NCBI GenBank assembly: GCA_018222585.1
Contig: JAAFAB010000005.1
Location: forward strand, 62,001-126,000
DNA from: Paracoccaceae bacterium
GTDB lineage: Bacteria > Pseudomonadota > Alphaproteobacteria > Rhodobacterales > Rhodobacteraceae
Direction of reading: 5' to 3'
Length of the DNA: 64,000 nt
Shown here: piece after piece, positions 14,201 to 36,449 of the stretch
Position numbering within the stretch: position 1 is the first letter of the stretch
Layout of the letters: each line of letters begins with the position of its first letter
The notes under the pieces: model-generated
What the model was told of the DNA's origin: nothing
The model's input: only the letters and a program-made list of their open reading frames with translations
Databases searched by the model: none
Translations under genes and position numbers: made by a program

Positions 14201-15259
14201 CTATCCGAACATCTCTCTCAGGTCGACGGTGGAGTGATCATTCAGCGCCTCCCGGTGCTCTGCCAGGAACCTCTCGGCCGAAGCGCGCCCCGCCGCCTTC
14301 AGCGAGGTCAGCAGGTAGCCGTTCGGGAACATCTTGGTGGCCATCGACAGGTGCTGCATCACGCTGTCCTCGGCGATCATGTGCACCAGCACCCGTTTCT
14401 TCTCGTTCGAGCTGATGCGCCCGTCGTCCAGCAGGCGCTGCACGTATTCGATGGCCCGCAGCTCGCGCAGCAGGGACGAGTTGAAACTGATCTCGTTGAT
14501 CCGGTTCTGGATCTGGGCGGGCATCATCGGCAGCTCGGCGCGCTCCAGCGGATTGATCGAGACGATCAGCACGTCATCCGGCAGGTCCGGCCGGAACAGC
14601 GGGAACAGCGCCGGGTTGCCCGAGTAGCCGCCGTCCCAGAAGGCTTCCATCCGGTCGGACTTCGGGTCATGGAACTCGACCGCCGTGAACAGGGTCGGCA
14701 GGCAGGCCGAGGCCAGCAGCGCCTCGACGGTCAGCTCCTCGCCCTCGAAGACGCGGATTTTGCCATCTCGCACCTTGGTCGCGCAGACGAACAGGTCGGG
14801 GCCGCCCGCGCCGCAGACGGCCCCGAAATCGAACCGCTCGACGATGGGGCGCAGGGGATTGCGGTAGAAGGGGCCGAGCGCATAGGGCGTGGTCACCACC
14901 GAGAGCATGTCCGCCACCTGCCCGGCCATGGAGTATTCCAGAGCCCGGCCGATCTCCCGGGAGCCAGGCATCGGGATGCCGGCCATGAACCAGGTCCAGA
15001 AACCGTGTTCCTCGACCGCGCCCATCTGTGACCAGAACCAGTCAAGCTCGGCCCGCGCGCCCTCGCGCCCGTTCTTCGCCCAGCCGGCTTTCAGCGCGGC
15101 GCCGTTCATCGCCCCGGCAGAGGTGCCGGAGATGGCCGCGATCTCGAGGCTCTCGTCCTCGAGCAGCCGGTCCAGAACGCCCCAGGTGAAGGCGCCATGG
15201 GCGCCCCCGCCCTGCAGCGCCAGGTTGATCCGCTTGGTTTCCTGCTTGCCGGACGCCAT
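14201..15259 (-). CDS. Patatin-like phospholipase
   Basis: A 352-residue patatin-family serine hydrolase. It carries the oxyanion-hole motif LALQGGGAHGAFTWG, the nucleophile elbow SGTSAGAMNG (catalytic Ser) and the DGGYSGNPAL motif with the catalytic Asp. There is no signal peptide, so it should be cytoplasmic. It lies 51 bp downstream of bdhA on the same strand. Patatin-fold enzymes include phospholipases and, in some bacteria, intracellular polyhydroxybutyrate depolymerase-like esterases. The pairing with 3-hydroxybutyrate dehydrogenase makes a role in PHB or 3-hydroxybutyrate metabolism plausible, but this is inference. Confidence 0.9.
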   Translation of the reverse strand: MASGKQETKRINLALQGGGAHGAFTWGVLDRLLEDESLEIAAISGTSAGAMNGAALKAGWAKNGREGARAELDWFWSQMGAVEEHGFWTWFMAGIPMPGSREIGRALEYSMAGQVADMLSVVTTPYALGPFYRNPLRPIVERFDFGAVCGAGGPDLFVCATKVRDGKIRVFEGEELTVEALLASACLPTLFTAVEFHDPKSDRMEAFWDGGYSGNPALFPLFRPDLPDDVLIVSINPLERAELPMMPAQIQNRINEISFNSSLLRELRAIEYVQRLLDDGRISSNEKKRVLVHMIAEDSVMQHLSMATKMFPNGYLLTSLKAAGRASAERFLAEHREALNDHSTVDLREMFG

Positions 15260-15310: not shown

Positions 15311-16084
15311 TCACAGCGCCGTCCAGCCGCCGTCGATGCTGATCGTCGTGCCGGTGATCTGCTCGGCCGCGGGCGAGCAGAGGAAGGCCACCGTGCCGCC
15401 GATCTGTTCGGTGGTGGCGAATTCCTTGGAGGGCTGACGCTCCAGCAGGACGTTGCGCACCACCTCGTCGCGGCTCATGTCGTATTTCTTCATCGTGTCG
15501 GGGATCTGCGCCTCGACCAGGGGCGTCAGCACGTAGCCCGGACAGATGGCGTTGCAGGTGATCGGCTCTTCCGCCGTCTCAAGCGCCACGGTCTTGGTCA
15601 GCCCGACCACCCCGTGCTTGGCACTGACATAGGCCGACTTGTAGGGACTTGCCGTCAGACCATGGGCCGAGGCGATGTTGACCACCCGGCCCCAACCCGC
15701 CTTGCGCATCATCGGCAGCGCGGCGGCGATGGTGTGGAACGAGCTGGAGAGGTTGATGGCGATGATCGCATCCCACTTGGCCACCGGAAACTCTTCGATG
15801 GCCGCAACGTGCTGGATACCGGCGTTGTTGACCAGGATATCGCAAGCGCCGGCCTTCTCGATCAGCGCCCGGCACTCTTCGCCCTTCGACATGTCGGCCT
15901 GGATATAGCGCACCTCGGTGCCGTATTTCGCCGCCATGTCGGAGGCGATCTTGTGATCCTCCTCGCTGTCGGTGAAGGAGTTCAGCACCACCTTCGCCCC
16001 GGCCTTCGCGAGCTCTTCCGCCACGCCGAGGCCGATGCCGCTGGTGGATCCCGTCACCACCGCTGTCTTGCCGCTTACACTCAT
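15311..16084 (-). CDS. bdhA: 3-hydroxybutyrate dehydrogenase
   Basis: A 257-residue short-chain dehydrogenase. It has the NAD-binding TGSTSGIGLG motif, NNAGIQH, the catalytic Ser in NIASAHG and the Tyr/Lys pair in YVSAKHG. Length, the C-terminal GTTISIDGGWTAL and the LLERQPSKEF stretch match D-3-hydroxybutyrate dehydrogenase, which oxidises 3-hydroxybutyrate to acetoacetate. The ATG at 16084 is chosen because the Rossmann strand begins seven residues later; AGGAGAGACC precedes it. The frame runs on upstream only by chance. It appears to be the first gene of a two-gene unit with the patatin gene. Confidence 0.92.
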   Translation of the reverse strand: MSVSGKTAVVTGSTSGIGLGVAEELAKAGAKVVLNSFTDSEEDHKIASDMAAKYGTEVRYIQADMSKGEECRALIEKAGACDILVNNAGIQHVAAIEEFPVAKWDAIIAINLSSSFHTIAAALPMMRKAGWGRVVNIASAHGLTASPYKSAYVSAKHGVVGLTKTVALETAEEPITCNAICPGYVLTPLVEAQIPDTMKKYDMSRDEVVRNVLLERQPSKEFATTEQIGGTVAFLCSPAAEQITGTTISIDGGWTAL

Positions 16085-16222: not shown

Positions 16223-16300
16223 TAAAAAAAACGCCGGCACAAGGCCGGCGTTCAGTCATTGAGGCAGGTTTCATACAGGCAAGAAACCTATCGAGCAGTG
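16223..16300 (-). ncRNA. Candidate small RNA with two hairpins
   Basis: On the minus strand a -10 box TATAAA (complement of 16306-16311) predicts a start near 16299. The transcript would contain hairpin 1 (AGGTTTC/GAAACCT, 16283-16289 with 16266-16272, 10-nt loop). A short single-stranded stretch follows, then a strong intrinsic terminator (AACGCCGGC/GCCGGCGTT with a run of eight T, 16224-16252). Length is about 75-78 nt. No minus-strand gene lies upstream that would need this terminator; the next gene, at 16413, is on the other strand. The -35 box is weak (TTTCAT at 17-bp spacing). No known sRNA family is recognised. Confidence 0.55.
16224..16252 (-). terminator. Strong intrinsic terminator
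   Basis: A 9-bp stem, AACGCCGGC (16230-16238) with GCCGGCGTT (16244-16252) and a 5-nt loop, is followed on the minus strand by an eight-T run. It is the best intrinsic terminator in the window and lies upstream of bdhA rather than after a gene. Confidence 0.85.
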
Positions 16301-16412
16301 ATCTCTTTATAAGCAATCCCAGCCCGTCATGAAAGCTAAAAGTTTGAAAAGGCGTGAATCCGCAGTTACCGTGAGGGCCAAGAAAACAAGGTTTCCAGGG
16401 AGCAGACAGCGA

Positions 16413-18260
16413 ATGAGACTTTTCCCCAAAGGACGGCCCTCGGGCCTCTTGCGCCGGGCGGGCGGCGTGCTCGCCGGGGCGATTCTCGGGCTTTCGGGGG
16501 TGATTCCCGCCATGGCGCAGCCCTCCCATGGTCTTGCCATGTATGGAGAACCGGCGCTTCCGGCGGATTTCAGCCACCTGCCCTATGCCAATCCCGATGC
16601 GCCCAAGGGCGGGGTCTATGTCACCGGCAATACCGGCGGTTTCGACAGTCTCAATCCCTATCTGGTGCGCGGCAACGTCCCCTGGCAATTGCGCTTCCTG
16701 ACCAATGACACGCTGGTCTACCGCAGCCAGGATGAACCCTTCACGGTCTATGGCCTGATCGCCGAATCGATCGAGACCGGGCCGAATCGCGACTGGGTTG
16801 AATTCACCCTGCGCGAAGAGGCCCGTTTCTCGGACGGCAGCCCGATCACCGTCGAGGATGTGATGTGGTCCTACGAGACGCTCGGCACCGAGGGCAACGC
16901 GCGCTACCTCGGCCTCTGGGGCATGATCGAGAAGATGGAGCAGACCGGCCCGCGCAAGATCCGCTTCACCTTCAACAGCGAGGACCGCGAGCTGGCGCTG
17001 ATTGTCGGAATGCGGCCGATCCTGAAGAAGGCCCAGTGGGAGGGCATCGACTTCGACCAGCCGGGCTTCGACGTGATCCCGGTTTCGTCCTCGCCCTACG
17101 TGGTCGAGAGCTGGCAGGCCGGCCGCAACGTGGTGCTGAAGCGCGATCCCGACTACTGGGCGAAGGATCTGCCGATCCGCCGGGGCACGGCCAATTTCGA
17201 CGAGATCCGCATCGAGTTCTTCGGCGATCAGAACGTGCTCTTCGAAGCCTTCAAGGCCGGGGAAATTTCCTTCGTGCGCGAATTCAACGCCGAGAAATGG
17301 GACCGCGACTACGATTTCCCCGCCATGCGCTCCGGCGAGGTGGTGAAATCCGAGATCTCGTCCGAGCGGCCCTCGGGCATCACCGGGCTGGTGATGAATT
17401 CCCGCCGGACACCCTTCGACGACATCCGCGTGCGTGACGCCCTGCTGCACGCCTTCAACTTCGAATACATCAACGAGGCGCTGACCGGCGGCAAGCAGCC
17501 GCGCATCACCTCCTATTTCTCGCATTCGGTGCTGGGGATGCGCGACGGCCCCGCCGAGGGCCGCGTGCGCGAGTTGCTGGCGCCCTTCACCGACGTGCTG
17601 GCCCCCGGCGCGCTGGAGGGCTACGCCCTGCCGGTCAGCGACGGCTCGACCCGCAACCGGGCCAATATCGTCAAGGCGGCGGATCTGCTGAACGAGGCGG
17701 GCTGGACCGCCGGCGACGACGGGATGCGGCGCAACACCGCCGGAGAGCCGCTGACCTTCGAGATCCTGCTGCGCCAGGGTGACCAGCAGACCCAGGCCAT
17801 CGTCGACATCTACCTCGACGCGCTGACGCGCCTCGGCATCGACGCCCGGGTCTCGGTCGCCGACAATGCCCAGTACACCAGCCGGATCGAGACCTTCGAC
17901 TTCGACATGACCGACATCCGCCGCCAGGTCTCTCTCTCGCCGGGCAATGAACAACGCCTCTACTGGGGGGTCGAAAGCGCCGATCAGAACGGCTCGCGCA
18001 ACCTGATGGGGGTAAAGAACCCGGCCATCGACGCCATGGTCGACGCCATGCTGGCCTCGCGCGGGTCGGATGATTTCACCGCCGCCGTGCGGGCGCTGGA
18101 CCGAATCCTGACCGCCGGGCGCTACGTGATCCCGATCTTCATGTACGACAAGGCCCGCGTCGCACATGACGCGGCGCTGAAATACCCGGACGAGATCCCG
18201 ATCTACGGCGACAGCGTCAACTGGCTGCCCGAAGTCTGGTGGATGGACCCCGAGGGCTGA
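16413..18260 (+). CDS. Periplasmic peptide-binding protein (YejA-like, SBP family 5)
   Basis: A 615-residue extracellular solute-binding protein. A signal peptide (RRAGGVLAGAILGLSGVIPAMA, about residues 15-36, with AMA-Q cleavage) is followed by the family-5 binding domain. FSHLPYANPDAPKGG and GGFDSLNPYLVRGN are characteristic of the YejA group, which binds oligopeptides or microcin C-like peptides for an ABC importer. The ATG at 16413 is chosen because it starts the signal peptide and AGGGAG lies upstream; a longer in-frame start at 16329 is unlikely. The yejB/E/F permease and ATPase genes are not adjacent, so the binding protein is an orphan here. A hairpin terminator follows (18286-18311). 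Confidence 0.9.
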   Translation: MRLFPKGRPSGLLRRAGGVLAGAILGLSGVIPAMAQPSHGLAMYGEPALPADFSHLPYANPDAPKGGVYVTGNTGGFDSLNPYLVRGNVPWQLRFLTNDTLVYRSQDEPFTVYGLIAESIETGPNRDWVEFTLREEARFSDGSPITVEDVMWSYETLGTEGNARYLGLWGMIEKMEQTGPRKIRFTFNSEDRELALIVGMRPILKKAQWEGIDFDQPGFDVIPVSSSPYVVESWQAGRNVVLKRDPDYWAKDLPIRRGTANFDEIRIEFFGDQNVLFEAFKAGEISFVREFNAEKWDRDYDFPAMRSGEVVKSEISSERPSGITGLVMNSRRTPFDDIRVRDALLHAFNFEYINEALTGGKQPRITSYFSHSVLGMRDGPAEGRVRELLAPFTDVLAPGALEGYALPVSDGSTRNRANIVKAADLLNEAGWTAGDDGMRRNTAGEPLTFEILLRQGDQQTQAIVDIYLDALTRLGIDARVSVADNAQYTSRIETFDFDMTDIRRQVSLSPGNEQRLYWGVESADQNGSRNLMGVKNPAIDAMVDAMLASRGSDDFTAAVRALDRILTAGRYVIPIFMYDKARVAHDAALKYPDEIPIYGDSVNWLPEVWWMDPEG

Positions 18261-36209: not shown

Positions 36210-36449
36210 ATGGCTTCCGATAGACAGAACCTGCAAGACGCATTCCTGAACCACGTGCGGAAAACCAAGGTTCCGGTGACGATTTTCCTGATCAACGGTG
36301 TCAAGCTCCAGGGGGTTATCACCTGGTTCGACAATTTCTGCGTGCTGCTGCGCCGCGATGGCCAAGCCCAGCTTGTCTACAAACATGCGATCTCGACCAT
36401 CATGCCGTCGCAGCCGATTTCTCTTTATGAAGGCGACGGCGAAAATTGA
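36210..36449 (+). CDS. hfq: RNA chaperone Hfq
   Basis: A 79-residue Hfq. Sm1 is [23 protein letters not shown] and Sm2 is the [13 protein letters not shown] strand, with the YKH motif lining the proximal U-binding face. The short tail SLYEGDGEN is typical of alphaproteobacterial Hfq, which lack the long E. coli C-terminus. It pairs small RNAs with mRNAs, which is relevant to the candidate sRNA at 16223-16300. Its stop overlaps the hflX start (TTGA), the usual alphaproteobacterial hfq-hflX coupling. Confidence 0.98.

Follow-up and report, generated by a model that had tools for sequence, protein, structure and literature searches.

Bacteria of the family Rhodobacteraceae are of major importance in the sea and in soils, and a function is known for few of their small RNAs. 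Several described RNAs invite comparison with the one reported here; for the papers cited by PMC number, our statements refer to the accessible parts of those sources. SorX (Rfam RF02784), also from Rhodobacteraceae, is a Rhodobacter sphaeroides RNA whose source is the 3' UTR of an OmpR-like gene (PMC6238624). The same species also has StsR (RSs0827), which measures 72 nt and is Hfq-associated there (PMC8307010); it is an orphan in a source that lists 79 small RNAs for this species, 38 of them orphan (PMC8625941). The alpha-r8 RNAs (MmgR of Sinorhizobium, SisA-D of Caulobacter) are ~77 nt long and Hfq-associated in those bacteria (PMC12559287, PMC8401924). In Paracoccus denitrificans, two abundant RNAs named 'Intergenic 134' and 'Intergenic 60' (84 and 80 nt, respectively) were conserved by BLAST over many Rhodobacteraceae (PMC5107571), and the accessible target table of Ruegeria pomeroyi holds trans RNAs of at least 101 nt, none fitting our RNA by size (PMC4809877).

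Our small RNA gene lies in a 64,000-nt stretch of a contig from a Paracoccaceae bacterium (the window), within which no Rfam family reached its gathering score. The SorX model aligned with the RNA over its full length at 27.4 bits (cut-off 46.6; E = 3.4e-05), and weak SorX matches were also present in 11 of 14 control genomes. The two RNAs are alike in their size, 5' hairpin, CCU-bearing linker and U-tailed terminator, but their cores differ, and our RNA has its own promoter and YejA-like and bdhA neighbours rather than a 3'-UTR origin. Identity with SorX was rejected because the score is under the cut-off and true SorX matches occur elsewhere in the same genome, where two exceed the cut-off (67.8 and 53.9 bits). 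These lie at L082 1501-1571 and L083 1555-1501, the second without most of the 5' hairpin.

Identity with alpha-r8/MmgR had been suspected from a loop taken to be UUUCCUGUAU, but the published core is UUUCCUCCCU (PMC12559287), which is absent from our RNA, and the MmgR/suhB model (RF00519) scored 17.6 bits on it against a cut-off of 41. A likeness to alpha-r8 is seen in its anti-Shine-Dalgarno 10-mer and in the link of MmgR to PHB, as our RNA adjoins a PHB gene. However, the alpha-r8 10-mer follows a weak hairpin (PMC12559287), whereas the candidate seed of our RNA is a hairpin loop. The best RF00519 match in the window's genome was found at L090 ~1500-1577 (31.7 bits, <41) and contains UUUCCUCCCU with one mismatch. 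StsR was rejected as well, as the probe given in the accessible part of PMC11354728 had 0 matches in the window at up to 3 mismatches. The BLAST lists for Intergenic 134/60 (PMC5107571) include Rhizobiales/Streptomyces and Sphingomonadales, unlike what we found for our RNA, and the coordinates of both were absent from the matches in 121 genomes, which need not include P. denitrificans. In the literature within our reach, with most subscription papers and all supplements beyond it, no named RNA could be equated with this one. The small RNA belongs to a known kind of RNA but forms a sequence family that is new and reaches no Rfam cut-off, and it may already have been detected in some transcriptome.

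The coordinates of the gene and its neighbours are collected in Table 1. R1, a covariance model built from 65 sequences of relatives, matched the window at 16224-16303 with 109 bits. The first core nucleotide is 16299, which yields the predicted RNA length of ~76 nt, and conservation sets in at this expected +1, 7 nt past the -10 box. A preliminary description of the locus had placed the RNA at 16223-16300, which is correct to 1-2 nt, and the -10 TATAAA, the 7-bp hairpin with its 10-nt loop and the eight-T terminator that it reported are all found on the minus strand. The 5' hairpin gains one T-G pair in predicted folds, and the first 6 nt of the linker fall inside the core. Loop and linker are both predicted to be single-stranded, with a high unpaired probability for the loop (computed on a consensus); the loop sequence, at up to one mismatch, had no second place within the window. 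The folding of the RNA gave z = -4.78 against shuffles, with 0/200 shuffles as good, and the terminator pattern was unremarkable by itself (2 in 14 kb vs 6.0 ± 2.9 in shuffled sequence). The fold and terminator statistics alone are modest; the existence of the gene was decided by conservation.

Table 1 Features of the small RNA gene and its neighbours in the window.
Feature	Position	Strand	Basis
Small RNA gene, predicted transcript ~76 nt	16224-16299	minus	sequence and covariance model R1
Ultraconserved core of 40 nt, comprising a single-stranded 5' part, the hairpin and the first linker bases	16260-16299	minus	sequence identity
5' hairpin, 7-bp stem AGGTTTC (16289-16283) / GAAACCT (16272-16266)	16266-16289	minus	sequence, folds, alignment
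10-nt loop TTGCCTGTAT, candidate pairing seed	16273-16282	minus	sequence, predicted unpaired
Single-stranded linker GCCTCAATGACT, second candidate seed	16254-16265	minus	predicted unpaired
Intrinsic terminator stem-loop, 10 pairs (7 G-C)	16229-16253	minus	terminator scan, covariation
Terminator T-tract, eight T; first bases overlap extended stem	16224-16231	minus	sequence
-10 box TATAAA	16306-16311	minus	sequence and promoter comparison
-35 position, TTTCAT in the window	16329-16334	minus	promoter comparison
Conserved upstream box CAAACTTTTAG, at -47 to -37	16336-16346	minus	promoter comparison
bdhA, 3-hydroxybutyrate dehydrogenase, downstream neighbour	15311-16084	minus	TIGR01963, 368.7 vs cut-off 307.05 bits
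YejA-like family 5 solute-binding protein, divergent neighbour	16413-18260	plus	PF00496
Patatin-like protein gene, past bdhA	14201-15259

The distribution of the RNA was evaluated in 394 Rhodobacteraceae genomes from 393 genera, of which those ≥90% complete and ≤5% contaminated were counted as good. R1 matched 384 of the 394 genomes and 345/347 good ones. The 40-nt core with up to three mismatches was present in 378/394 genomes (340/347 good ones), corresponding to 377/393 genera. Our samples overlap, and searches over 40 genomes filter more strictly, so that weak relatives could escape these counts. A smaller first sample gave R1 matches in 36/36 family members and in 0/24 genomes from other families, and in a sample taken as the genus of a Paracoccus aminovorans locus (L063), 120 of 121 genomes carried the RNA. 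Among 289 genomes sampled at the class level, strong R1 scores (107-109 bits) were confined to the four Rhodobacteraceae, and ten others had weak scores of 28.9-35.6 bits. In eight of these ten, the stretch nearest to the core on either strand had at least 17 mismatches; as the core is absent from the eight, the weak matches were set aside. Model and DNA searches found one copy in the window's genome, and two R1 matches were counted by eye in 15/384 genomes, with the core present twice only in G226. No match was found in phage sequences. Plasmid records with a match comprised four Paracoccus replicons of 1.5-2.2 Mb and one Cupriavidus record with a 33-nt match. To judge from the genomes sampled, nearly all Rhodobacteraceae have the small RNA, almost always as a single copy.

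Conservation of the core was assessed in 80 bdhA-bearing loci from other genomes, and the core was found upstream of bdhA in 78 of them, 77 with 0 mismatches in 40 nt. The two exceptions were a contig that ends 87 bases upstream of bdhA (L003) and a locus with neither the RNA nor YejA found in the stretch covered (L023). Across the 78 loci, the mean pairwise identity of the core was 0.9987 and 38/40 positions were invariant. In bdhA from the same loci, the best 40-nt window had a mean pairwise identity of 0.844 and the longest invariant run was 5 nt (65/78 sequences; 13 were excluded for differing length or frame). We also examined 28 loci reached via the RNA itself, which avoids the bias towards bdhA (8 with 1.5 kb flanks and 20 chosen from the listed matches with 4 kb), and all 28 had the core with 0 mismatches, as did 147/150 among the matches listed (Rhodobacteraceae). 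The rare changes affect loop positions 1-2 (L021, L307), a stem base (U-A to U-G in L021) and sites near either end of the core (L305, L308). Past the T-tract, conservation drops to background: the first base 3' of the terminator reached 0.77, and the commonest base thereafter 0.29-0.45 (every third of 60 positions). The core can also persist when its surroundings change, as in L302 and L303, where the promoter box has been replaced along with the terminator sequence, and in L304, where the promoter box is gone and the common terminator stem is kept; the 40-nt core is identical in all three.

The predicted structure was evaluated on 63 distinct sequences, in which 1071/1071 pair cells were standard. 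Whole-structure covariation was 0.127, compared with 0.041 ± 0.004 after shuffling (0/500 shuffles as high); slid controls did not exceed 0.027. The preliminary description had looked to compensatory changes in both stems. These occur in the terminator, where 5/8 consensus pairs have changed on both sides with pairing kept, but not in the 5' stem, where 8/9 helix pairs are invariant across the same sequences; as it hardly varies, the 5' hairpin yields no covariation evidence, for or against.

Our results suggest that the small RNA is probably an independently transcribed, Hfq-type trans-acting regulator of ~76 nt that pairs via its loop and linker. Its U-tail and the A/U-rich stretch ahead of the terminator would bind Hfq, which is indeed encoded in the window as previously noted (36210-36449; TIGR02383, 113.1 vs cut-off 61.7 bits), and the U-rich end would be consistent with a dependence on Hfq. 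The exposed 10-nt loop UUGCCUGUAU and the linker CCUGCCUCAAU would base-pair with several mRNAs near their ribosome-binding sites, where the CCUG/CCUC motifs of both could complement Shine-Dalgarno-like purine tracts. Such pairing would mostly block translation or speed decay, and if the targets are many and fixed, or a single partner is essential, the core would be unable to change.

The near-total invariance of both stem arms exceeds the needs of pairing and may point to a protein partner. It is conceivable, though rather unlikely in our estimation, that the RNA acts mainly by binding a protein, which it would sequester or guide, with the frozen hairpin and its flanks as the protein site. 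In its favour, the freezing takes in the stem, the loop and the flanks on either side, and the 5' helix is nearly invariant; however, an own promoter, short single-stranded CCUG/CCUC stretches and a U-tailed terminator are the anatomy of a pairing RNA. We know of no candidate protein partner for the small RNA.

The promoter was compared in 107 sequences (the window, 78 bdhA loci and 28 RNA-reached loci), and its -35 and -10 elements stand at a fixed spacing from the core. The -10 element reads TATA in all 107 and TATAAA in 72. At the -35 position, TTGG is in register in 99/107 promoters and shifted by one base in a further 4; the deviants besides the window (TTTCAT) are L106, L111 and one further locus. 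The preliminary description names no -35 element. The degenerate -35 of the window may indicate weaker or activator-dependent expression. No sigma-70-type promoter scored above the scan threshold. In R. sphaeroides, an RpoHI/HII promoter of a gene has -35 TTG and -12 TAT in the accessible part of its source, motifs too short to discriminate between sigma factors (PMC10673084). The base preceding +1 was C in 65/78 loci, and the preceding four bases were variable. The upstream box, with the RNA on one side and the divergent YejA-like gene on the other, was exact in 69/107 promoters and is missing from L302-L304, whose core is unchanged. With up to two mismatches it occurred at the RNA gene in 10/11 genomes, and elsewhere 13 times vs 37 for the reversed control; as the box is no commoner elsewhere than this control, a shared regulon was not inferred.

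The YejA-like gene was divergent and adjacent in 78/78 bdhA loci with the RNA. Among the 28 loci reached via the RNA, YejA was found in 26 and bdhA in 24: one locus had neither (L124), one had no YejA (L119), two had no bdhA within 4 kb (L116, L118), and one had no bdhA inside its 1.5 kb flank (L101). The gap between terminator and bdhA ranged from 38 to 2215 nt, being ≤204 nt in 54/78 loci and >1 kb in 11/78 (L002, L039, L042, L049, L056, L059, L071, L074, L075, L078 and L079). The varying gap, the differing open frames before bdhA and the loci without neighbours argue for an independent gene, and a free-standing gene with its own promoter and intrinsic terminator is very strongly supported by the sequence data. 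This part of the earlier proposal of a trans-acting small RNA thus stands firmly, and its trans role is supported by the loci that have the RNA without YejA or bdhA alongside. By eye, some of the open frames in the long gaps encode DnaJ-like or calcium-binding-repeat proteins, and a homologue of the patatin-like gene was found in 56/80 bdhA loci.

The same arrangement bears on a cis-acting bdhA leader or attenuator, in which transcripts would stop at the terminator unless a signal permits read-through. The RNA is on the same strand as bdhA and upstream of it in 78/80 loci, mostly at the short distances given above. However, we consider this reading very unlikely given the range of the gap, the unrelated open frames between RNA and bdhA, the 4/28 RNA-reached loci with no bdhA found in the flank (only 1.5 kb for L101) and the absence of conservation past the terminator. 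The persistence of the RNA beside neither neighbour in L124 speaks against it as well.

The AGGTTTC-N10-GAAACCT palindrome also adjoins the divergent promoter region, and it could instead be a DNA operator for the YejA-like gene, its neighbour in nearly all loci, or for the RNA itself. Yet conservation is as strong in the non-palindromic loop and the two flanks as in the arms, the site is present without YejA in L119 and L124, and an operator does not need a covarying terminator, which makes this explanation very improbable. Finally, a divergent member of the SorX, alpha-r8/MmgR or StsR RNAs, which the full-length SorX alignment and the shared order of hairpin, linker and terminator would favour, is the least credible of these alternatives in view of the sub-threshold SorX and RF00519 scores, the missing alpha-r8 core and the unmatched StsR probe.

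With regard to the wider meaning of this RNA, we tentatively propose, as a possibility that we hold at somewhat less than even, that Rhodobacteraceae as a whole share in it a core riboregulator not described before, which has a never-named fixed partner and forms a new Rfam family. A fixed partner, be it a protein or a set of RNAs that the cell cannot do without, is implied by a core that stays frozen while promoter and terminator can turn over. To the best of our knowledge, a sequence fixed over hundreds of genera is rare for trans-acting RNAs, and the RNA thus lends itself to asking what keeps an RNA from changing: the number of targets, a protein partner or both. An RNA that nearly all Rhodobacteraceae have, and whose core can hardly change, should be an important regulatory node in this family; our alignment A1 and model R1 would serve as support for a new family in Rfam.

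Candidate targets of the proposed pairing were sought in 13 genomes as exact complements of the loop (ATACAGGCAA) and the linker (TTGAGGCAGG). Exact sites numbered 99 vs 27 for reversed controls and 153 vs 33, respectively, with the RNA gene itself contributing 13 to each; nothing was drawn from this excess since reversal ignores codon use. For the loop, 85 regions were analysed for 86 sites outside the RNA gene, as one region holds two sites, of which one was analysed. For the linker, 55 sites were analysed, 10 from the window's genome and 45 from six others; those of G030, G034, G100, G168, G344 and G413, plus four of G090, were left out. Seven site clusters had the site in register, each in 2-5 genomes. 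In every member, a reading frame of 300-470 aa spans the site on the other strand. Judged by eye, these antisense frames resemble genes for citrate synthase, 3-isopropylmalate dehydrogenase, malic enzyme, a TRAP permease, a methyltransferase and a glucosidase; L182 is the one member whose sense frame exceeds the antisense one in length. Because a long conserved frame runs antisense to the site, we took the seven clusters as coding conservation and not as targets. No conserved perfect 10-mer site in the sense orientation was found in the 140 regions, and no recurrent gene outside the clusters was seen among them by eye. A possible start codon lay near the site in 51/140 regions, by a loose filter that includes some members of the antisense clusters.

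The flanking genes were also compared with the RNA by duplex energy at 78 loci. The solute-binding protein gene next to the RNA, which the preliminary description had suggested as a target, did not emerge as one: the yejA duplexes had a mean z of -0.25, with no mean difference from shuffles. The bdhA region gave a mean z of -0.27 against shuffles. Duplexes with z < -2 were found at 9/78 loci on the yejA side and 3/78 on the bdhA side, with the lowest values in L073 (-4.3, yejA) and L066 (-3.3, bdhA). On the yejA side, z was ≤ -3 in L054, L072, L073 and L075, a tail slightly heavier than expected around a mean near zero.
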